Both the position numbers and the translations under genes were made by a program. This document shows, in pieces, positions 37,130-64,000 of a stretch of 64,000 nt of DNA; the first letter of the stretch is position 1; the number at the start of each line of letters is the position of its first letter. The notes under the pieces are model-generated. The model ran no database searches, was not told the origin of the DNA, and saw nothing but the letters and a program-made list of their open reading frames with translations. The DNA comes from Ceratobasidium sp. AG-K (Eukaryota; Basidiomycota; Agaricomycetes; Cantharellales; Ceratobasidiaceae), in the NCBI GenBank assembly GCA_037039685.1, contig JAWNGF010000002.1, positions 3,038,001-3,102,000 on the forward strand, read 5' to 3'.

Positions 37130-40100
37130 ATGGGAAAACGGAAAGTGCCTTGTGAATGCGGCAGATGCACCAAACCAGTGACGACTGAGACGCAGAAGCG
37201 TCACCTTCAAGGAATCTGGGGGAAAAAGCGTCAAAATTCAAAGGAGAATTGGGCAAGAATATGGTGAGCACGCTGTTTGACTGCAAATCGAAATCTTATT
37301 TGGCTAACATACATTACTGCAGTGAAATTTTTGTCAACATTCATCTAGTAGGGCGTCGCTCAACACACACCGTGGATCTGCTATTGCTTGGTCCAAACCT
37401 GGCATGCACCCCATGTTCAACAGCTCCCCCAAACCCCCAGATCCACCCTTTCCTATCCCCTACGAGCCCCAGGAACCAGATCTATCCCAGAGGTCGATTT
37501 AACGCACATCTGGGCGCAAGTGATGCGCGCACATCCACATACTGATATTGGCGATCGGACTATTACAAAGTCCTCTGAGCTTCCCAACAGCAATTCAGAG
37601 TCGTCTGTTGGACCCCCTGGCTCCGACACATCCAACCCCGGAGATGAGGGGTACAATCCAGCAACTGGTGGTCTTTCCCCCAAGGCATAACTGCCGGCAG
37701 GGTTCATGTTGGATGCAGCAAAGAATGGTAAGTCTCTCAGCACTCTTGATGCAATTCTTGCTAATTTCTATACGATTTAGCTTCGCTTTTCATTACTCCT
37801 GATGTTTTAGATGATATCCTGTCATTTAAATTTATAGTCCAGCACAAGCCAACTGTATGTAGTTACAAAGCAATGCAAGAAGCGTTTGTTCATAAACAGT
37901 CCCACGGAGCTCTTTGATGCTTAAACTTGTGCGTGCGCAGATGCTCTCCCTCTCAGCGCTCAAACCTATCAAATACCACTGCTGCAAAAACTCTTGCGTA
38001 TGTTACACTGGCTATCTAGGTGACCTACAGGAATGCCTGTACTGCAAGGCACCTCGACTAAATCCTGCTGGCCTGCCATATTCAGTCTTTTCATATGTTC
38101 CTATGATCCCTCAGGCTCTTGCTCTTTTTTGGAACAAATTGACTTGCGAGAAGCTCAAGTACCGCACAAACTATCAGCGATTGGGCAACATTGACAAAAT
38201 CTTTGGCGGCAAACAATACAAAAAACTGAAACGTACAAGGTGAAGATAGAGGGCAAGGAACAGCCCTATTATCACTTTGAAGACTGTCGCAAGCTTGCAT
38301 TTGGCCTGTTGATCGATGGCCTATGTCCTTTCAAGCATCGGAAAAACACTTGCTGGCCAATAATTCTGATCAACGATAACCTTCCGCCCAAAATTCAAAA
38401 CCTTCTTGAGAATATTATCTGCGTCGGCGTGATACCGGGTCTCATTTGCCCAAGGACATCAATTCTTTCCTACAACGCTTATTGATGAACTTATCAAGCT
38501 TGCTAAGGGAGTCAAAGCCGTAGATATGCTCCATGATGAGGTTTTCTTACTACGCGCATATCTTCTGGCGGTCTTTGGCGACATACCGGCAATCACTAAA
38601 TTACTCGAATTCTTGGGTCATAATGCTTGGTTCCCTTGTCGATTCTGTATGCATGAGGCAATTCCCGGTCGGACTGCCAAGGGAGGTACGCATATGTATT
38701 GTCCCCTGCATTGTCCAGACGGAACAACTACCGACCCACTAGACCTGCCTCTGCGAACGCATGCAGAGACTATTGAGCAAGGCCATGAGGTCCTCCAAAC
38801 ACCAAATGAGCACGCATGCTCCAAACTGGCCACAACTTATGGAGTGAAGGGGGTTTCGCTTCTTGCTCGCCTTTCATCAATTAGCATCCCGGCATCTTTC
38901 CCCGTCGAAGTGATGCACATGGTGTGGATTAATTTGATCCCTCAGCTTGTTGACCTGTGGACTGACAACTTCAACGACATCGACCACGGCAAAGAAAGCT
39001 ATCAGATCGATTCAGTACTCTGGGCTCTTATTGGGAATCTGTGCAAAGACTCTGGCTGCACGATTCCCTCTACATTTGGATGTCGTGTCCCTAACCTGAA
39101 AAAGCGAAGCCATTTTATCGCCGAGTCCTGGATGCTCTTTGCAACTCAGCTTGCCCCTTGCTTACTGCGCCGTCGCTTTGCTAAGCGATCATATTATACT
39201 CATTTTGTTCGCCTAATAACTCTGGTTAAGATGTGTGTCAATCATGAGATCTCTAGGGGCGACATTCCTATGATTCGCAATGGATTCGCCGAATGGATTC
39301 AAGAATATGAACGGTGCGTGAACGCATACATACACTTGCCGCCCAGCAGCTTATCGTTGAATAGCATATACTATCAATACAGTGCCAATCGACTACAAAC
39401 ATGCCCCGTCAATGTTCATTATTTATTGCATATCGCCGACTCAATTGAGTTCTTAGGACCCGTGTGGGCGTATTGGGCCTTCCCGATGGAGCGATACTGC
39501 AGCTTCATAGGCACTTCAGTCCGAAGCCGGCGATACTACTCAGCAAATATTGCACGACGAATCCTGGATTGTGCTCAACTCCGAGTGGTTCGCGAGGTAT
39601 ACAACCTCCATGATACGATCGTGCTTCGTCACCCGAGAGATGCCAGGGACGCCGAGGATGAAGGTCGGGCAACTGAGGGCGACCGACTTCCAGATTGTAA
39701 GTAACTTAGTGATCAGATACTTTATTTCTCATAGCCGCATACAACCTAGACCCAAATTGCGCGCTATTGACCCCACGCTCCGAGCGATTGACGGTGACAG
39801 AACCACTGTGCCGAAAAATTGCCAAACACTTAGTAACAGCATATGGAGTTACATTCCCAGAGGCCAAGAATTACGTTCCGGCGTCGGTTATGCAATGGGG
39901 ACGAATGCGCATCACCGAGGGAGGTGATTTAATCCATGCACGCGGGTATCATAAGCTACGGGAGGATGGACGCGACGCTTCTTTTGTTCGGGTAAGAACC
40001 TCATTTTTACGTTAATTTTCAACCATTCCTAAGATAAATTTAGTACGAGCTCGAGGTCGACCGACTCGCACATATTCCCAACGCCCCCTCCGACTTTATC

Positions 40101-52297: not shown

Positions 52298-53733
52298 TCA
52301 CTCCACCTTCTCGATCCCGACTGCCATGTCGACTGCCATGCCGCTCCCTCTCAGCCTCGTGCGCTCATCCCCTTCTTCGTCGCTTTCCTCTCTAACCTCT
52401 TCCAACGGAACTCCGTTCCCTTCCGGTCTCGCCTCTGGGTCGAACCGGTACAGACTACTACTCCTTCTCGTATGTCCCGCAATGCCAGCACTCGCGGGTG
52501 GGTTGGCCCAAGCAACGTCTTCGTCTTCGATCGGGTGGTTTTGTTGTTGTTGTTGGTGTCGAGACACGTTGAGGAGGTGCACGCCGAGAAAGGTGACGAT
52601 GAATCCGGCGATGAGGGAGACTGTGTTGGTAGGGTCTGTCGTATTGAAACCTCGGAAGAGGAGGGCGGAAGCGAGGATGGTGGCCGTGGAAAACCCGACG
52701 TAATACATTGGGTTTACTCTGCGCAGCCTTAACACTAGCAGGAACAAGGGGTTGGGAGACTCACACGTTGGTGGAAAACGTATCCAGAGCCTTGTTGAAG
52801 TAGTTCATCTGTACGGCAATACAGCTTGCGACGACAATCCCAAATACCCAAGTGCTCGGATGTGTGAGCTGGTTATTTCCGGCGACTGTAAGTTTAACGG
52901 CCACGCCAAAGCCTTTGATGGCCATGACGCTCACGCTCCCCACAAGAGAACAAATCGAGATATACACGAGTGGGGTTTTCTTGCCGTAGGACGGGACGAG
53001 GCGGTATATCGCAAAGAGGGACCAGATTGTGACAAGTAGGACGTACATTAAGAATCCTATAATGTGTTAGTGAAGTTATTCGAATGTTATTACGGAGAGC
53101 AATAGCCGAGGGACCCACCTGGCTGGAGCGCATAGTTAAGGATCTCGTCAACAGTTTGAATATCCTTGTCTTCGGGTGCGTGCAGGACGATGATAACTGA
53201 TCCTAGGAGACAGAGCGTGCATCCTACACGCCCAATGTGCCCTAGTTCTTCGTTGAGGAGAACCGAGGCCAAGACGGCGCTAGAGAATATTAGGACAGGC
53301 CGTCACTATAATGGAATTGCTCACCCAATTAATACACTCAGTGCGCCCAGCGGTGTCACAAGAATTGGCGGAGCAAACGTATACGCCGCAAAATTGGCGA
53401 CTGGAAGCGTGTGAGCAGTGGCCGCAACAACAATGGCAACGTACTTTCGCCCACCACCACTGCCCAATTATCAACAAGCGCCTGAGCTCCCAGTACTGGA
53501 CTCACGTGTAATCATCCCAGCCCACCATATGGGATTTTTCAGATACGACAAGTTGTCCGAGGCGCTCTGCGACGCTGGGCCACGTCGTGCTGCATCGTTC
53601 AAGCCCTGCACCCAGGTTAGCCAGCGAATACAACGTTTGAGCAACTTACCTTTTTTGTAATGATAAAACTGGTCCCGATTGCGAGTGAGCTCGAACACGC
53701 CAGCGCGAGCCCGATCCACTTGTCTTCCACCAT
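52298..53733 (-). CDS. NIPA-type magnesium transporter
   Basis: Seven exons on the minus strand join without conflict to 382 residues: 53733-53650, 53605-53506, 53459-53445 (15 bp), 53400-53325, 53279-53119, 53056-52765, 52718-52298. NIPA/DUF803 hallmarks appear in order: KWIGLALACSSSLAIGTSFI, NPIWWAGM, VGE then IANFAAYTFAPPILVTPLGA, LLNEELGHIGRVGCTLCLLG, VLHAPEDKDIQTVDEIL, KTPLVYISICSLVGSVSVMA, QMNYFNKALDTFSTNVVNP, MYYVGFSTATILASALLF. About nine membrane segments are expected. The cytoplasmic C-terminus is Gln-, Glu- and Arg-rich (HQQQQQNH, EEVREESDEEGDERT). The family moves Mg2+ at the plasma membrane or endosomes. The ATG fits the usual N-terminus. Confidence 0.95.
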
Positions 53734-54680
53734 CTCGGTGATTGAAAGCAAAGCGAGTTTAGCATCCGGTCACGTGCCGCAGTGATGAACCATGTCAATC
53801 GGTTGTATTTGTCCCTGGTCGAATGGCCACTCGCACCTCGATAGCACGCCTTGGCGGTTCAATACACCTGACCAATTATAATTTGGCCTCATTCGCCATC
53901 TCTGTTATGGTGTCAATTAGAAAATCCCCGTTCGTACCTCCGAGCTTCAGGGTGGAGCTCTGGTTAAGGCAAGTGGCGTATAAGGTCAAGGCGCCACTGA
54001 CTGTCAAATTGCCCTCGCTGGGTAGAGCGTCGGCCTCGCCTAGACGATCACACGAAGCTTCGTGGTCAGAATTCGAGCGAACTCTCTGAGACTGACGTTA
54101 CGTGCCATCAGGACTAAAGAACGAGCTGAGCATGTGCAACGGACAAAATATTTATCAGATTACGGACAATTGCTTTATTTGAAACTCAGTCTAGCGGGCT
54201 AGCGGTTCGAGTGCGTAACCTAAATAAGACACTTTCACGATAGGGTGCCTGATAATGATTATATGCCGAGAGAGAAGGGGCTCTAGGATCGAGGACGTCC
54301 ACAACTTGGCCCAAAGGGGCAATTGGGCAGTAGCTCATTTGACCTGGGCAAGCGCGCATGTACCGCTGGAAACTTCGCGATTGTGCAATGTACGTATACT
54401 TATTAGCTATGTACGTGCGGCTCAGATAAATACTTGATGCTTCGGGAGTCGGGCGGACGTCATCGGGGCATTGACGTCAAGCTCGGGCACCGATAAAAAA
54501 CCGTCTGTTCTGCGCGTGAGCAATACCACAAACGAGATTTATTTTTATTTTATTTTTCAATGGGGCGATCTGTAGGGAATTCAGGAACTTGAGACTTCTC
54601 ACCTTGAAATATATTTTTCGTGCCGCAATAGCCCCGCGACAAGCTCTCAATAATCAAGTCGAGCAAATGTGTTTCCATAA
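53734..54680. other. intergenic DNA between transporter and receptor locus
   Basis: No gene seen. A TGGGTAGAGCG box at 54019-54029 resembles a tRNA A box but no matching acceptor stem or B box follows in register. Confidence 0.4.
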
Positions 54681-54900: not shown

Positions 54901-55632
54901 CAGTTGGGTCGATAAGGATCACCTTTCCAAGCCACCAACCTTGAGTCTGCTCGAAGAACACGTTGGGAGTAGCCCTAGTGCTCATATCTGCATGGGTTCC
55001 GTCCTGCCCTTTTAATACATTTTTGTTCCACTCATAACCTGGCGGATACCAAACTCAAAACCAGTGCAAGCCCAAGGTACAGTATATGCATTGGTGCTCT
55101 CGAGGATTTAGATTACCTTATGGAGCAGGGCTAGTGGTTGTTTTCTCCTGGAGGTCCATGGTTACGATATGGCGTTGAATCAACGATGAGCCAAAATATC
55201 TATGCGCATACAATGAGAGTAGTGTCTCTCGCTTTCAAGGATGACGTGAATTGGGACTATGTCTCCTTTGGCATTTTCACACTATGAGGCTTATTCTTGA
55301 CCAACTGTTGAATTTTTTACCAGCGCAATGGCAGTCGCTACTACAAAAAATTACCTACTCGAAAACCCCCCAAGCGGGAGCTCATACGATGGCTTCTCCG
55401 TTGTCCAATTGACTCGCAGTTGCCACCCAGAGGGAGGACACCGCAGGCCTGACATGTCATGGGGGCCCAACCCTATACCCTCCTGGATAATCCTGATTCG
55501 GCACCATTTAAACCACAATATTGACTATGACATGTTTGACTTGGACCTGACACAAGATACTATACCGCACTAATATTACATACAAGCTAGCCATAGGAGT
55601 TCGTGGGCCGGCCATGCGGGCGGTAGAAGCGA
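54901..55632. other. unassigned DNA
   Basis: An 81-codon frame at 55328-55573 shows no family features and no CaaX ending. I searched both strands here for CaaX-type tails and found none. Confidence 0.35.
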
Positions 55633-55769
55633 TTGGCCACATTCGGGCATGAGCTAGCCATTTAGATGGCGCCACGGTATGGGCAAGTAGGCACCGCGAG
55701 GATCAAAAGGAATCATCCAAATTAATTCTCCTGGAGATCAGCTACGATTAGTTTCGTCAAGTACGGTAC
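55633..55769 (+). repeat. direct repeat A1 flanking the receptor/peptide unit
   Basis: About 137 bp resemble 58231-58365 in the same orientation, with shared blocks TTGGCCA, GAGCTAG, TGGCGCCACG, GGCAAGT, ATCAAAAG and GCAGTCATTAGTTTC-like ends. By-eye identity is about 70%. Confidence 0.55.
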
Positions 55770-56359
55770 GATCAGCGCCGAGAGAATGCGATATTACCTT
55801 CAGGGCGGTGAAGAAGCTCCTCGGTAAGAAAAGATGTTCATTTAGTGTAGTTTCTTGGCATTGGCTGTCGCTTTTATTTACCGCTCGATTCGAGGCTCGG
55901 GAAACTGATTACATCTTCCCTACTTACTGATCGACGGTGGGCCCTCACGACGCGCCACCCACGTGTATGGAGATGTGATGAAGCCCGGGGAGACTGGTTT
56001 GTTTATGAAATGAAGGATGCTCGCCGAATCATAGCACATCAATAATGGATTGAGACTGGGCTCGATATACATCTCCCAAACTTTGTTTCAGGAGATTGGG
56101 ACTGGGATATCCAATACAATACTAATTTGATACACTGGATAGGCTTGTCATGATCAAGATTGAGCGATGTGTCAGAGATAATCAGAGTATTGTATTACTG
56201 TAAGCGTAGTATATTAATATTTAGACACTGCCTACAAGCCCGCTGTTCATCCCCCGGTTTGTTTACAGCCCCAGGTTTCTGAATTAACGACCTTCTTTGA
56301 ATTTACCATTGTCAACCTACGACTGCTCTAGTTGTACATAATTTCTGCCCTTCTGCGTC
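55770..56359. other. upstream region of the STE3 receptor gene
   Basis: No gene seen; presumably promoter of the receptor. Both strands were checked for CaaX-ending ORFs without success. Confidence 0.4.
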
Positions 56360-57602
56360 ATGGGCGTCGAGCTCCCGATCGTCAGTTTCATTAGCGCCTT
56401 GCTAGTCCTCATGCCTCTGCCCTGGCAGTGGAGAACCCGCAACGTCTGCACAACTTCTATCATTCTCTGGCTTGCTGCATGCAACATCCTCCGCACAATC
56501 AACACCATCGCTTGGCTCGATAATGTCGCTGTAAAACACAGGATCTGGTGTGACATCGGTGTGCCCCTGTCCAGTCTAACCAACTCGTTGACTAAGATAG
56601 TACTCGTAGTTGCTAGATTCATTGCTGGTGCCAACATTGGCGTTCCAGCGTCAGCCGTGTGTATCTGTCGTCGCCTGGCTCGAGCGTCCACTCCATATTA
56701 CAGGACTCCAAACCCAAGGGAAAAACGGAAACAGGTGAAGTTTGAGATCGGGATGTGTATTGGGTTGCCTATCATATTTTCTGCCCTGCGTATGTTAGCT
56801 TCTTATAGTTTTGTGCTGGCGCTGAGTAAACTATGCAGACATAATGGTGGAACCGTGTCGATTCAATATCGAGGAGGAGTTTGGTTGCATTCCGGTGAGC
56901 TGATAATCTTGGCTAGTGGCTCAAGCTCATGTATTAACCCTCATTATTCACTAGTGTTATCATCCGTCAATTCCTGGCTTGTTTGTCACCTACGTCCCTA
57001 CAGTCCTGCTTTCGTTTACCGCATCGGTGTACTCAGGTGAGCACCATGTTATATGGGGCAGCCATGTGTCACAACTGCCATGCAGGGGTCGCACTGCGCT
57101 GGCTTATTCATCGCCGCGTTCAGTTTCATCAAGCCTCAGAACATACACAGTCAATTGCAGCATCCGGTCGCTACCTTCGTCTTGTTGCTCTAGCGATATC
57201 TCAAATGACGGGTGCTTCAGTAATGTCAATGTTCTTGATGTCGTCCTCGATTGGGGCCGGGATTCGTCCCTGGACTTCCTGGAAGGATGTGCATGAGAAC
57301 TGGCGGGAGGCCATTTCCCTCCAACCCAGGAGCTCGGTCTCCGATTTCCATTGGATGAACTCGTTGGTTGGTTGGTACTTTGTACCAATTACATCGGTCA
57401 TGACATTTGGATACTTTGGATTTGATGAAAGAGTAGCCACGGAATACAAGAACATGTTCGCTTGGATTGAGGCGCACGTCCACCGTATTAAAGCCAAGAA
57501 GGAAGCTGTACTACCTCTCAGGTATGTCTCCTTTGAAACGTGAGTTGCATAGTCTCCAACTACTATTTCACTCTCAGGGCCAGCAACTCGATAGCAGCAT
57601 AA
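56360..57602 (+). CDS. STE3-type pheromone receptor (fungal class D GPCR)
   Basis: Six exons join in phase to 328 residues: 56360-56558, 56601-56789, 56839-56894, 56955-57036, 57086-57521, 57578-57602. Family features: hydrophobic segment 1 from residue 6 ending PLPWQWRTRNV, segment 2 with AACNILRTINTIAWLDN, the IWCDI motif at 62-66, FIAGANIGVPASAVCICRRL, REKRKQVKFEIGMCIGLPII, FVTYVPTVLLSFTASVYS, RYLRLVALAISQM, and segment 7 with GWYFVPITSVMTFGYFGF. Intron 1 is 42 bp, in frame and without stops, so its removal is a choice based on family spacing. The protein should sit in the plasma membrane and signal through a G protein to the mating MAPK cascade. The C-terminal tail after segment 7 is short. 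A candidate pheromone gene lies 280 bp downstream on the other strand. Confidence 0.92.
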
Positions 57603-57881
57603 AACTAGTTCGAAGGTTGGTGCATTTTCGACTGAAGTAGGTTGTCCAATACTGGATTGCCTTCCAAGCCGCCAGCCTCCATTTTACTGAAGAACGTGTT
57701 AGGAGGCGCCCTACTGCTGTGCCTGTATTGACTTTGCATTGTTATCTGACTCGGATCCAATCCACGCTACAATACAACATCGATGTTACATTCAAGGTGG
57801 CCATATTAATCCGCACAAAAAGGATGAGAACGAAGGAGTTGCTCCGGAGCATAGAATGAACGAATATTTCGATGGACTCGC

Positions 57882-57980
57882 CTAGGTGATCCCGCAGCTG
57901 TCAATACCGCCATTACCCTGCATGTAGACAGGCTGGGGGATCTGGACGGTGTCAAAAGTGTAAGCAGCGGAAGAATACAT
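57882..57980 (-). CDS. candidate lipopeptide pheromone precursor (32 aa, CaaX-type end)
   Basis: Minus-strand ORF from ATG (57980-57978) to TAG (57884-57882). It starts MYSSAAYTFDTVQIPQP and ends QGNGGIDSCGIT, so the last four residues are C-G-I-T, a CaaX-type farnesylation box. Basidiomycete pheromone precursors are short, lack a signal peptide, and end in CaaX; Gly-rich stretches before the Cys are common in them. It lies convergently 280 bp from the STE3 receptor, the expected arrangement in B mating loci. Odd points: Gly in the first aliphatic position, and no Glu-Arg/Asp-Arg processing pair. In a window this size chance 4-residue C-x-aliphatic-x ends occur, so location is the main support. 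Confidence 0.6.
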   Translation of the reverse strand: MYSSAAYTFDTVQIPQPVYMQGNGGIDSCGIT

Positions 57981-58230
57981 GAGTAGACTAGTAGGCGAGT
58001 GTGAAGGGCATGTAAGATCTAGAATAGATTGCTACCGCCGAACCAGTGTCACTCACGCTGGGATTTATAGATGCTACGTCGACCCGAGGGAGCCCGTTGC
58101 TTTGTCCTAGTCCGCGATGCGTTGCTGGCCCAGATGAGTAGTAGAACTGTTTTCGCTTGTCGTCCGAGGCGTGGTCTATGACCTGTGGACCTCGAGCTTA
58201 GTATTTAGGTTATGTGGACCTGAGAAACTA

Positions 58231-58365
58231 TTGGCCATATTTGAGTGCGAGCTAGTCGTATAAGTGGCGCCACGATATAGGCAAGTGGGCGCCACAAAAA
58301 TCAAAAGAAATCACCTAGATTGATCCACCCAGCGATCAGCCGTCATTAGTTTCATCATGTACAGT
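58231..58365 (+). repeat. direct repeat A2 flanking the receptor/peptide unit
   Basis: Partner of the repeat at 55633-55769. It lies about 250 bp beyond the start of the candidate pheromone ORF. Confidence 0.55.
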
Positions 58366-59705
58366 CTACGTGGAAGATCTCGATCTGGAAATAACACAAT
58401 GCCAATAACTTCGGACGATTGACATCTGCAGACGCACCACGGTCACAGATGAATCATAGTCACGGGCCGCACCGGATGGTAATTCTAGTGACAGTACCCC
58501 GGGCTGAGCGTTATGCCCCAGTAGGCAGCAGCAGTATCGCGCGGGTATTATACTTTGTTCCCGTGTCACCGCAAAGTAATTCGAAGCGGGTTCTGGGAAC
58601 AATTGAGGATGGCATTATGAGTACGAGTGAAATCAAAGTGAGATTGGGAGAGTTCTGAGGCGAGAGGAACCGTGATTGGTTGCCGCGAGCCAGTTGGGCC
58701 TTACCCAACATTAGGGTTTATTCAGGGTCCGTCACACCTTCACTCTCTTGCTCGCCGCGATCGTCCGCTAACGCCCCGGCGCACTCGCAGCAGCCGACTC
58801 GACGCTGTGCAATCCGCAGAGCCAGTGATTAAGCTGCTAGATAAGCCGATGCGACGCCATACGGCAGCCAGGGACCACCGCAGCACGGATGACACAACCC
58901 CCGGCGCGAATTCGCACGCATCGCCTCGGTTTATCAGCGTTTCCTCGCGGTTTGTCACCCGCACAGCACGCCCCATTGGACTGGCGGCAAGTTCATCACT
59001 CTCGGCCTACACTTATCTAATCCAACTGGACCGTGCTGCGACCTCGATACGGCCCACGCGCGGCTCCTCTCCGGTTTTCGCTCGCGAAAATTAATGAGGT
59101 GGCCGACGGTCAATGTCACGAACTACGCCGTGTTTGGTATCCCAAGTCTGCGCGACTCGGGTGTAGATACTGCTAGGCTCAATGAACTTCACACTCGCGT
59201 CTGTATTGTCCGCACCTCGATAGCGTTTAAATTTTAATCTGACATCAAGTATTTCCATAGATGAGTGCTCTGCGACTCCAGCGCCTATATACCCATTCTT
59301 GGAATCATAGGGATATTTCTGGCCAGAGTACGGCTGGCTCGATAATGCTGTACAGCATAAGGAACCTGATTCAAAGCGCTCCATAAGCAGACTGGTCTGC
59401 CCCGGGCAGCCCGGGCACTCTACACTACTCCCAAAAATAGAGCTGTCCTGGTTTCAAATATTCGGAGCGTTCCAGGTAGGTTCCCAGCTGCGCAGATGAC
59501 TGTCTCATCTCTTACTCATTCTGATACAGGATCAGTTAGTAAGATTATTCATGCCGTCTTTTGGTGAACCTGCGCTTCGAGTGATTGTCAATCAATTCTT
59601 TTGATGAGCACCGCGTTCGATACGCGTGATCGTCCAAGTCGCTAAAGAGAATAAATACTTTGCGTCAAGTCGTAGGCATTCTTCACCTCTCGGTTCCTTC
59701 TCATA
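58366..59705. other. region between pheromone candidate and glycosyltransferase
   Basis: Short frames at 58366-59094 and 59091-59384 lack features. An ATAAATA box at 59651-59657 lies 49 bp upstream of the next gene's ATG and may be its TATA element. Confidence 0.4.
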
Positions 59706-61571
59706 ATGTCTACCGAACAAGCCTTGAAACATGTTGTTTTTGTCTCGACTCCGTCGTGGGGTACGTGTGTTCAGGTCTTCTGATTCGATCGAACTCTAGC
59801 GCTAACCATACCATAGGTCATCTCCGTCCAGCCATCAAGTTTTCCCTTCAACTAGTCGAAAGGTTTCCCGACTTATTCATCTGTACGTCCCTTCATCCTT
59901 AACCTAACTTTTACTAATGGCCAATTTAGCCGTCTTTGTCTCCGGCCCTAAACTCACTCAAGCACAGGAGTATATCCAATCTCTGACCTCTACACACATC
60001 CAGCGAATCCGTCTAGTTTCCTCGTCCAACTCGACTGGACCAGCCGCCGCAGCCCCCAACGCGCTCCAACTCTTCGCTCTTCTCCAAGAGTCCTTCAAAA
60101 CTTGGATCGCCGCCGAGCTTGAGGCTGGAACGACCCGTATACAAGGACTGGTTGTTGAAAAGCCAAGCTGGGCGATCGAGGACCTGTTTAATGGCGGTGT
60201 GTCGTTGGGACATGGGTTCCCGGTCGTAGCGTGGTGGTCGCGTACGGCCGCTTCGTTGATTGCGTAAGTCTGATTTTAGGCAGGGAGTCGACGGTGATAC
60301 TAATGCTGGTCTAGGCAAGCTGGAAATGAGGAAAATGGTCGTGGGGCGCGGATATTCGAGGTCATGGCCGAGCGCCAGGCTAAAGGCGAGGCAATTGGGC
60401 CTGATAACGCGGCTGAGGTGTTCCTCAAAGTACGGATTCCCTCTTCTGTTTTTAACCATGCCTAACTTGGATGAGTAGGAACTCTCGGATCGACTAGTAT
60501 GCATACCTGGCTTACCAGCGCACTATGAACACGAACAAATACCGCAATTGATGCCCTTCGTACCGGCCTTTGCGACGTTTATGACCCCACGGTTTATCAG
60601 CTTTATCAAGAACGTTGATTATGTAGTTTGTTGTACTACTTTCGAAATGGTTCGTCCCCTCACCCTCCCAAGTATGTCCCAATACTAATCCCATGATAGG
60701 AGCCTATCTCGGCCGCGGCACTATCCAACGCCCTAGCCAAGCCCATTACGCCCTTCTTCACTGGACCATCCGTCGATCTCCCTCCCACAATCTCTTCCAA
60801 TACCACGTCACCCGTTATGGAATTCCTCGACCGCGCATACACTGATCTCGGACCACATTCGGTCGTCTACATCGCGTTCGGATCGATGTTTTTCCCGCTC
60901 CCCGAGTCGATGAGCCATTTGAAGATTATAGTCGAGGAGATCGTGGCAAGTGGATTGAGGGTCGTTTTTTCGCTTTCCAACGCGAGTAAAGTGGGGCAAG
61001 AATGGGTAGATGGACTCGTGCAGGGGGGTGAAGCGATTTTCCCTCAATGGACGGAACAGACGCGTGTGCTTGAGCATCCGGTAGGTCCATCATGGTGATT
61101 GGTATGAGAATGGTGTATTGACAGTGCGTTTCAGGCGATTCATTATTTCCTCTCGCATGGAGGATGGAATTCTACCACGGAAGCACTTGTACGAGGTGTC
61201 CCAATGATTTTCTGGCCATTTGTGGTAAGCATATCCTTTGGCTGGACTTTCGTTTTGCTGATTATTAGTAGTCCGATCAACCAGGTAATACCCTCCAAGT
61301 CGCCACGATGCACAATTCTGGGTTCGAGTTACTCCAAGTCAGGAATGGACCGGCTCGCAAGATCGCATACCAAGGTGGAGCCAATTTGGCTATTGAGGGC
61401 ACGGACGAGGCGGTCAGAGAGGAGATCAAGGGAGTGTTGAAAGAATCTAAAGGCGCGAGGGGAGATTTGCAACGTACAAACTCAAGGTTGCTGGGACGGG
61501 TATTGGCCGAGAGTGTGTGCGCGGATGTGGATTTGGGTAGACTCGGAAAGGTGTTGGGTTTGGGTGTTTAG
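59706..61571 (+). CDS. UDP-glycosyltransferase (GT1 family)
   Basis: Eight exons join in phase to 503 residues: 59706-59760, 59817-59882, 59930-60263, 60315-60429, 60479-60649, 60700-61080, 61135-61224, 61272-61571. The N-terminus has VVFVSTPSWGHLRPAIKFSL with the catalytic His at residue 20. The C-terminal half carries the GT1 donor-binding region: SVVYIAFGSMFFP, FPQWTEQTRVLEHPAIHYFL, SHGGWNSTTEALVRGVPMIF, and SDQPGNT in place of the usual (A/S)DQ. The length is normal for the family. The enzyme should transfer a sugar from a UDP-sugar to a small lipophilic acceptor (sterol, phenolic or xenobiotic), which the sequence does not identify. No signal peptide. It separates the intact and the decayed receptor. 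Confidence 0.95.
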
Positions 61572-61999
61572 GCTAGGCCTAGAGATGTATGCGGTGTAGT
61601 AGGGGTTCGGAGTCAGGGTCCGAGGACCTATAGCCTGTGTATTGTCCATAGCCAATCCACCTTCCTTCTTCTGCCACGCTTCCCTAGGCGTGTCCAGCGG
61701 GCGAGTCGTCTTAGCGACTAGAAATCAAATGCCAAGTGTTCAAGCTAACTGACGCGAAGAGATTGGGTAGCCATAACCCCCACGTGTGTATGTTACGATA
61801 AATTCCCGAACACATCATGACATTGCACTATCCCAAGCCCAAAGCAATCAAGTACATATATAGTCAGCCCTAAATTACTCAAGAGCGTAATCCCGGATTA
61901 ACCTCTCAGCAGCGGCCCAATTTGCAGCGTTCCTAGTCGTTTCGTGGTGGCAATATCGGCGCTTCGGGCCGCCTCGTCTGTATGCCTCACTTGTCACCT
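61572..61999. other. intergenic DNA downstream of the glycosyltransferase
   Basis: No gene. Both strands were searched for CaaX endings; the only near hit (C-M-L-R, 61786-61800) has no ATG in frame. Confidence 0.4.
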
Positions 62000-62905
62000 A
62001 GAAAGCAAAGTATTATCGCCTTTGAAGGCAAGCCAAGAGGAGATATTCACCTCGTCTTGGACCCCGCCTCATCAAACGCCTACGTCATCATGCCCCTAAA
62101 CTTCCCAAGACCGAAAACAAGAAAAGTCTCACGAGGAGATGGGCAAGGAAAAATTAGACTCAATTCTAGGAGCCATGGGCTGCGCTCGGGCGAGAAGCTC
62201 GAGCGCAAAACGCGAGCCAGACATGGTCACATGAAGTGCTACCACGCATCAGTCCTCGCCTCAGAAGCTCCCCGAGTACAAGGGGAGGTGGTGCCGTTCA
62301 GAGACGGTCATTAGAACAACCGAGACTCGCAGCGTAATAGTCTGCAAGACAGCCAGCGTCATATTTGTACTGCTACATGCAAAATTCCGGCCAGATCTCG
62401 GATATCCAGGTGTCAGTCGATGTCAGGGGGATAGGGCGTGTCCAGTGAGCACCACCCGACAGTCGACCTCACCGGGATCACACCTCCTCGCCATCAGCGG
62501 CGCAACAGAAAGCAGCAAGGGGTGCATAAACCCACATGCGGTAACAATGGCACGGAGCCGGCGCTGGGGGTACCGAGGACCATGGGCAGACTCGGACGCG
62601 ATGCGTGGAATGCGTCAGGGGCAACCCCACCCCCTCGTCTTGCGGGTCATTGGGAGATAATGTCCAGCCCGTGCGTACGAGCGCGAGGGCGTGTGGTGAT
62701 GGTTAAGAGACTGAAAATTGGGAGAAAAGAGCGTGCCCATTGTGGTTGAGGAAAAGAGAGAAAGCGAGAAGACAGGGGCATATATAAGCCATTTGGTCAG
62801 GGCAGGTGGTGCATTCAGTCACACAATCGCCCGGCGCTTCGCCACAAATCGCAGATGGAACTTGCCAGTACCCGCAGTGCTCCTCACGCGCGCTCGAAAC
62901 AATGC
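62000..62905 (+). repeat. dispersed repeat family R1, copy 2 (~0.9 kb)
   Basis: Same orientation as the copy at 1600-2515. It includes the TATA-type CATATATA (62779-62786), GGTGGTGCATTCAGTCACAC and CGCCCGGCGCTTCGCC. Several overlapping frames are carried along with it. Confidence 0.7.
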
Positions 62906-63593
62906 AACCATCAAAAGGGACTGCCTCAAGCTCAGTATTAAGATTTTGTCGTGAGTTTGTTATTGTACGGGAAACGCACCAATGTGTAGAGACATCAAAC
63001 TCCTCGGATCCTCGGTAATGTAGTCAGTTGCTTGGCCTACACCCCACGACCGGGAGCAGTCTGAACGAATATTCCAATAATAATCTCATGATAATTATAC
63101 TCATTGCAATTCGCACCTGTAACTTATTTATATTTTAGATTAGTTTTACGTTTGGTTGGGAATTATCCAGCCCGAAGTGGGCGGAGTGCGGGGCGTCGTA
63201 GGCACGAATATACAAATTGAGAAGCTCATTTAGGCTATTGGTTAGGCCATAAACCGAATCATGGTTGTAGATAAGTGAGTTCATGCGATTAAGACGTTGT
63301 GCGGCGAGACATTCCCCAACCAGCTACCCGATTCGTAGATAAAAGGAAACGCACTCATTCAGATCTTCTCAACGACAACTTGGGTTTGGGCTTGGGCTAA
63401 CTTCAAGCCTGACATTCGTCAAACAGAGGTGATAGGGATGCTCGCTCACTCAATTAACCCTTCTTTCTCACTCAGGTAAGGAGGCTGGACTCGGGGAAGT
63501 CACGACCGGTTTGCGAGCTGGTATGATGCTATCCGTACTGGATGCAGTTCAGTGTTGGTTTGGATGCACTCTAATATTACGCAAGACACGTAC
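62906..63593. other. region after repeat R1 and 3' side of the decayed receptor
   Basis: No separate gene; the final short exon of the decayed receptor may lie near 63480-63520. No convincing CaaX ORF with an ATG was found on either strand. Confidence 0.35.
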
Positions 63594-64000
63594 CTCAGAG
63601 GTAGCACCGCTGTCTCCTCGGCTATGGTATGGAATAGGCACGCCTTGATCCAGGTGAACGCGTCCTTGTATACCACGATGGTTCTGCTATCAAATCCAAT
63701 GTATCCAAAAAAAAAACACGACTGACGCGAATGGCACAAATTACCAGGCAACCATGTGGAGTGCCCAGAAAAACTCAGGCATAGATTCCTGGGGTACCAG
63801 AGAAATCTCCAGCCAGTTTTCGTGGACGGCCGCCCAGGAATCCCATGGTTGACGACCAAACTGAAACATGGTGCCCAGTCCAAACAACGACATTGCTGTA
63901 GTAAAGGTCATCTGGGTGATCGCTAACGAACCAAGGCGAAGGCAGGGACCGGACGCAGGCATCGATTTCGTATATCACGGGGCTTGCTGAAACTTAGCTC
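63594..64000 (-). pseudogene. second STE3-type pheromone receptor, decayed, cut by the window edge
   Basis: The minus strand matches the C-terminal third of the receptor at 56360: KFQQAP..TKSMPASGPCLRL, GSLAITQMTFTTAMSLFGLG, RQPWDSWAAVHENWLEISLV, FFWALHMVAW, GYIGFD, VVYKDAFTWIKA, ending TAVLPLR at a GTACGT donor at 63593, the same splice position as in the intact gene. Three lesions are seen: TGA at 63977-63975 in the third cytoplasmic loop, TAA at 63743-63741 replacing the Tyr of GWYF in segment 7, and a run of ten T (63707-63716) where the frame needs nine. The 5' two thirds lie outside the window. An intron from GTAATT to GATAG could skip two of these lesions but would delete conserved segment 7. 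Confidence 0.85.

Follow-up and report, generated by a model that had tools for sequence, protein, structure and literature searches.

A receptor gene and a short CaaX gene at the window's right end

The 64,000-nt stretch of DNA analysed here (the window) covers positions 3038001-3102000 of contig C2 (JAWNGF010000002.1) in the 53.6-Mb, 17-contig assembly of Ceratobasidium sp. AG-K; this one assembly, of a single strain, was examined on its own. Near its right end lies a gene for an STE3-family receptor, named STE3-A here, and 280 nt from the end of that gene, on the opposite strand, a short open reading frame (ORF) with a CaaX-type end. An earlier note, made from the letters alone, had proposed that these two, together with a second, decayed STE3 gene (STE3-B), form a pheromone/receptor (B-type) mating locus or a derivative of one. 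I read the pair as probably belonging to a second, amplified STE3 system. The features on which the argument turns are:

56360-57602, plus strand: STE3-A, intact STE3-family receptor gene (spliced model, hydropathy, ratio of nonsynonymous to synonymous substitution rates (dN/dS), Pfam)
57882-57980, minus strand: short ORF of 32 aa with the end CGIT, which belongs, in diverged form, to a CaaX family resembling pheromone precursors (profiles, DNA match)
58065-58069, minus strand: TATAA at about -89 relative to the short ORF (place approximate); also at -86 in the family member on C6 and at -96 in two copies on C13

STE3-A was modelled with exons at 56360-56558, 56610-56789, 56839-56894, 56955-57036 and 57086 to about 57522, separated by four introns, with a possible fifth near the gene end that leads to a short last exon reaching about 57602; if this last exon is not used, the frame stays open to a stop at 57543. 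The spliced model contains no stops or frameshifts and encodes a protein of ~325 aa that shows seven hydropathy peaks in its corrected form. The match to the Pfam STE3 model (PF02076) spans positions 1-291 of its 292 and has an E of 3.3e-66, a value obtained with an earlier hand-spliced version that retained intron 56559-56609 and one wrong residue. Against five paralogues dN/dS was 0.21-0.27, values that are rough because dS was 1.1-1.7. With its full-length model match and predicted seven-helix protein, STE3-A is, judged by its sequence, a real member of the STE3 receptor family, and the claim of an intact receptor gene held. In protein database searches the nearest relatives of the window's STE3 genes among the matches listed were from Rhizoctonia and Ceratobasidium.

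The short ORF encodes MYSSAAYTFDTVQIPQPVYMQGNGGIDSCGIT. Its CaaX end is by itself weak evidence because 42 CaaX-ended ORFs of 15-100 aa occur in 193 kb of other loci, and the case for it comes from its relatives. A genome search with the short ORF turned up six C13 places, all of them weak matches at E 0.012, which encode MDSSIAYTFEAVEVSQPVDMDGGAGGGSGSGGSCVIA, and a search with MDSSIAYTFEAVEVSQPVDMDGGAGGGSGSGGSCVIA gave 20 places: 17 on C13 and one each on C6, on C3 and in the window, these last three at E 0.02 to 0.04. Genome searches with the C3 and C6 members returned no further family places. Five distinct members, the window ORF included, were read and aligned. The 17 copies on C13, of CVIA type, lie within ~250 kb (C13:236429-487367), several of them identical and some arranged as inverted pairs.

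Against a profile of the four other members, built without it, the short ORF scored 29.7 bits, an E of 1.3e-7 in the set of 4709 short ORFs from all loci analysed, compared with 5.7 bits for the best non-member and 11.8 for the best of 40 shuffled windows. Both C13 members in this profile had been found via the short ORF and are not independent of it, so a profile of the C6 and C3 members, which had not been found that way, was run: the short ORF ranked first of 813 window ORFs with 20.0 bits (next window ORF 4.1; best of 40 shuffles 8.2). The C6 member alone gave 19.4 bits (best shuffle 12.5), while the C3 member alone gave 5.3 bits, under its best shuffle of 11.6 and not significant. At the DNA level the short ORF matched C13 copies at 76.5% over 81 nt (E 2.5e-9); the whole-genome protein matches of the family are individually weak (E 0.012 to 0.04).

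The window copy has diverged at telling places. Its CaaX box reads CGIT, where the other four members read have CVIA (three) or CIIA (one): the Cys at -4 and the Ile are retained, Gly replaces Val/Ile and the last residue is Thr. A Tyr follows the conserved Pro where all four others have Asp, and residue 2 is again Tyr (Asp in three other members, Gly in one). Checked by eye for the MD(S/A)F-like start and the charged dipeptide before the mature peptide that PMC8305134 describes, the ORF starts MYSS and lacks the dipeptide; MDSS, MDST and MGSP are the starts seen in the other members, the majority of which likewise carry no literal charged dipeptide. Start, length, stop and cysteine are kept. 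TATAA at -80 to -100 precedes 10 of 809 window ORF starts as background, and the upstream sequence of the C3 member was too short for this comparison. Given the profile matches on the one hand and the Tyr, Tyr and CGIT changes on the other, the short ORF by its sequence truly belongs to the family and is the most unusual of the five members read, perhaps a weakening copy of a lipopeptide-precursor-like family centred on C13. The family is called precursor-like from its form. Genome searches with Pfam Pheromone and Mating_N gave no matches while their controls were equally silent, which leaves absence unproven, and a protein database search with the family gave no relatives at E 10 or better.

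The STE3 family, its tree and other mating-locus markers

STE3 matches number 110 in the genome and fall into 46 places, which include short fragments as well as several pairs of almost identical copies. Gene models, for which STE3-A and a single R. solani protein served as guides, were obtained for 39 places, of which 24 are intact and 15 broken or partial; 33 of the 39 models have five exons. The seven unmodelled places include C13:1226846 and C14:1173126, both with 68% DNA identity to STE3-A. Six gene pairs (on C1, C5, C8, C15 and C2/C11) differ by 0-6 coding bases; on C5 four pairs of places are offset by ~519 kb, and on C8 and C15 the pairs are inverted. They may reflect recent duplication of large segments, or an assembly that has joined two nuclear haplotypes.

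A receptor profile search of the database found 452 proteins, where an initial search had returned one, and the best 120 of 452 formed the set drawn on here. The tree was built from 70 rows, 26 own genes and 44 of the 120 listed database proteins, and omits 15 of the 39 modelled genes (broken, partial or short), two of which re-entered as cut fragments. It splits into 32 rows with STE3-A (25 of the 26 own genes, 7 of the 44 database proteins) versus 38 rows on what is here called the Rcb side, which holds, by record name, Coprinopsis Rcb2/Rcb3, Dendrothele Rcb3, Hypsizygus STE3.2, other mushroom receptors and Ceratobasidium/Rhizoctonia 'a-factor receptors'. STE3-A thus does not group with the known B-locus receptors in this tree (Rcb2/Rcb3, Dendrothele Rcb3, Hypsizygus STE3.2), and the tree comparison suggested in the earlier note went against a B-locus assignment. 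In approximately unbiased (AU) tests, with both groups defined after the tree was seen, moving STE3-A to the Rcb side was 129.7 log units worse (p 1.6e-38), and grouping it with a set of five (two Rcb3, Rcb2, STE3.2 and a Schizophyllum receptor that carries no B-locus name) cost 561 log units (p 6e-6). In a second tree of the best 120 of 452 database proteins and eight own genes, seven database proteins joined the STE3-A clade: five from R. solani, one from Hericium and one unnamed metagenome protein. STE3-A lies outside the Rcb side, and its clade, which is not known to contain a functionally tested non-mating receptor, would, I infer, be non-mating in nature.

Among the modelled own genes, C2:4199743-4200854 (L039) alone falls on the Rcb side; it has six exons and lies 1.1 Mb from STE3-A. 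It is 40.8% identical to C. cinerea Rcb3, compared with 28.7% for STE3-A, and appears the likelier B-type mating receptor of the two.

Homeobox-KN matches above the cut-off were found at five places on C4 and one on C9; C1 and C13 gave two weaker matches, and C2 gave none. The five on C4 are of equal score and lie within 400 kb (C4:3149536-3546584), a candidate homeodomain (HD, A) mating locus; the weak match on C13, at 426203 and below the cut-off, sits inside the precursor array. Synteny of flanking genes is not expected to hold across orders. The Trichaptum MATB locus is flanked by RIC1, DML1, PAK, RSM19 and SNF2; RIC1 matched here only on C1, not on the window's contig, and the DML1 model gave no genome matches, but its controls were also silent, so absence does not follow.

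Precursors and receptors are otherwise far apart. The distance from a precursor to the nearest receptor on the same contig is ~101 kb for the C6 member, at least 739 kb for the C13 copies (for the array as a whole, at least ~739 kb to the nearest STE3 match) and ~1.0 Mb for the C3 member. The C6 receptor at ~101 kb is itself close to STE3-A, and of the four contigs with precursors all but C3 (C2, C6 and C13) also carry receptors close to STE3-A, a sharing of contigs that is suggestive only.

The decayed copy and the surrounding genes

Further features of the right end are:

63596-64000, onward to about 64750 (window-equivalent), minus strand: STE3-B, broken STE3 gene, part of the last exon, with stops and a frameshift
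55614-55767, strand not given: left member of a pair of 154-bp direct repeats (72%) that flank STE3-A and the short ORF
58212-58365, strand not given: right member of the 154-bp repeat pair (72%)
59609-61574, plus strand: glycosyltransferase-like gene adjoining STE3-A (PF00201, UDPGT, E 0.023, below its cut-off)

The last exon of STE3-B has in-frame stops at 63975 and 63741, neither within a base run, and further on a frameshift that adjoins a run of A and could be a sequencing error; its remaining exons lie past 64000 (loci L036/L020). From these lesions STE3-B is a predicted dead copy, as the earlier note had said of this gene. In the tree its group includes two further copies from C2 but excludes STE3-A. 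Extending the analysis past the window's end, which that note had also advised in the hope of more receptors and peptides, followed STE3-B to about 64750 and yielded no CaaX family member near it with the family profile (L036).

The glycosyltransferase-like gene has a 72% DNA copy beside STE3-B (L036:2239-4182), with a match over 1975 nt. This copy and the 154-bp repeat indicate that the neighbourhood has been copied. The repeat was not found elsewhere in the genome by a search that was weak, since it also missed the 72% right copy. Upstream of the receptor, a gene for a magnesium transporter of the NIPA type lies at 52761-53751 on the minus strand (PF05653, E 2.9e-25 from one of its exons), and an open frame at 38433-39701 has sub-threshold matches to Transposase_21 (tnp2, E 5.9e-6) and DUF4218.

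What the pair may be, and how it compares with known systems

STE3-A and the short gene are best read as one module, of pheromone/receptor type, within a second STE3 system that has been amplified; they are probably not a mating-determining B locus, and I put the probability of this reading at about 0.58. It fits this reading that the precursor family has multiplied at a distance from receptors, with 17 of its 20 places on C13, and an amplified receptor clade together with an amplified peptide array agrees with a signalling role other than mate choice. Receptors of the STE3 family have farnesylated peptides as ligands and act via G proteins. By family membership STE3-A would most likely sense a farnesylated peptide, with a G protein and the MAP-kinase pathway of pheromone signalling passing on the signal; by analogy with what has been proposed for the B-receptor-like (Brl) proteins of S. 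commune, it may have a role in hyphal growth or self-recognition. A bolder version, which I hold only tentatively, is that the second STE3 clade and the CaaX family make up a massively amplified recognition system apart from mating, with the window pair as its surviving linked module; a Rhizoctonia-like fungus could use such a system for self/non-self signalling or for signals in hyphal fusion.

Several observations weigh against the second-system reading. Only one of the 46 STE3 places, and equally only one of the 20 family places, has its counterpart nearby, and it is the window's. In Rhizoctonia, receptor variants outside the pheromone/receptor (P/R) locus are described as having no adjacent precursor (PMC7884421); STE3-A does have one, so that the window pair, judged by this rule, would count as the mating one. 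The tree holds neither RhiPra, the Rhizoctonia P/R-locus receptor, nor any tested non-mating receptor. Four R. solani clade-mates of STE3-A are entered in the databases as 'Pheromone B beta 1 receptor', probably an automatic label. Finally, ~4 kb on each side of the Rcb-type receptor gave no family-profile match among ATG ORFs (spliced precursors were not sought) and no ATG ORF of 15-100 aa with the usual CaaX end.

These points bear on the rival that fares best, namely that the pair is a B (pheromone/receptor) mating-type locus or sublocus, the second STE3 clade having taken over mate recognition while the Rcb-type receptor does something else. I consider this unlikely, though to be reckoned with because STE3-A is the sole receptor place with an adjacent family precursor. 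The close linkage expected of a B locus is there (280 bp), and the chance of a precursor falling within that distance of any of the 46 receptor places is 0.0019 when the precursors are counted as four clusters and 0.0096 when counted as 20 places. The receptor is intact and under purifying selection, and homeobox-KN matches on C4 and C9, not C2, are what a tetrapolar layout expects, with the HD1/HD2 identity of these matches putative. The CGIT box is not fatal to a pheromone either, since polar CaaX residues have been reported in Trichaptum pheromones (PMC8970355). Set against this are the clade position of STE3-A with its AU tests, dozens of close paralogues, the CGIT end and lost Asp of the short ORF, and a genome DNA search that found no second allele of the region in the assembly, its next-best match being a 70% paralogue. 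Of the original mating-locus proposal, the receptor and the linked precursor-family gene stand, the short ORF as a real family member by profiles and DNA identity, and so does the decayed second receptor; the receptor's place in a separate amplified clade speaks against the mating role.

Somewhat less probable still is a relic: an old pair whose precursor no longer yields a signal and whose receptor is kept for other reasons or is decaying like STE3-B. CGIT in place of CVIA/CIIA, Tyr where the four others have Asp, the decay of STE3-B and the 15 broken or partial genes among 39 modelled receptors would all suit it; the ORF's retained start, length, stop, cysteine and TATAA at -89, and an intact STE3-A at dN/dS 0.21-0.27, would not. 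That the short ORF is a chance CaaX-ended frame unrelated to the receptor is very improbable and was rejected, for all the frequency of such ORFs (42 in 193 kb) and the failure of the C3-alone profile to separate it from shuffles, on the C6+C3 profile (20.0 vs 8.2 bits), the four-member profile (E 1.3e-7) and the DNA match (E 2.5e-9).

With about 46 STE3 places, 20 precursor-family places and one receptor that still has a family gene at its side, the genome offers a defined receptor and candidate ligands for testing non-mating STE3 sensing; it also cautions that an STE3 gene beside a CaaX ORF does not alone make a mating locus. Agaricomycetes are rich in STE3-like receptors (PMC12842992), and the ligands of the non-mating ones in mushrooms and their kin are an open question (PMC8305134, PMC8970355). 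A large STE3 amplification in Rhizoctonia or Ceratobasidium was not reported among the matches listed in titles and abstracts of the open-licence PMC literature.

The closest described arrangement is the Rhizoctonia P/R locus RhiPra-RhiMfa, one STE3 receptor with one adjacent short precursor gene (PMC7884421). The window resembles it in this pairing, in HD genes (here putative) on another chromosome and in receptor variants elsewhere, and differs in that RhiPra-RhiMfa is on chromosome 15 while the window pair is on the 6.8-Mb C2 with its receptor in an amplified clade; the two were compared by description only. STE3 beside a short CaaX-ended gene likewise recalls the B (PR/MATB) loci of Coprinopsis, Schizophyllum and Trichaptum, but unlike Agaricomycetes B loci the window has its receptor outside the Rcb side, an odd CaaX box and RIC1 on another contig (PMC8970355, PMC8305134). 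In being intact, multicopy and apart from mating receptors, STE3-A is like the non-mating Brl1-4 of S. commune (PMC8161036) and receptors of A. bisporus and C. cinerea (PMC8305134), a likeness to Brl that rests on descriptions, not on a common tree. Overexpressed Brl3 and Brl4 altered growth form and caused self-avoidance in S. commune (PMC8161036), which has four Brl genes where ~46 STE3 places are found here, with a precursor-family gene 280 bp from STE3-A.

On the ligand side, G-rich pheromone-like peptides that are not mating-type lie away from receptors, with the consensus GGGSGNGAYC in C. cinerea (PMC8305134); the C13 family, also away from receptors, has by eye the comparable GGGSGSGGSC before CVIA, but differs in its 17 copies within ~250 kb and in a window copy that is less G-rich and ends in CGIT. 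The parts are of known kinds, and what is unusual is their scale (46 STE3 and 20 precursor places), the separate receptor clade and the one linked pair.

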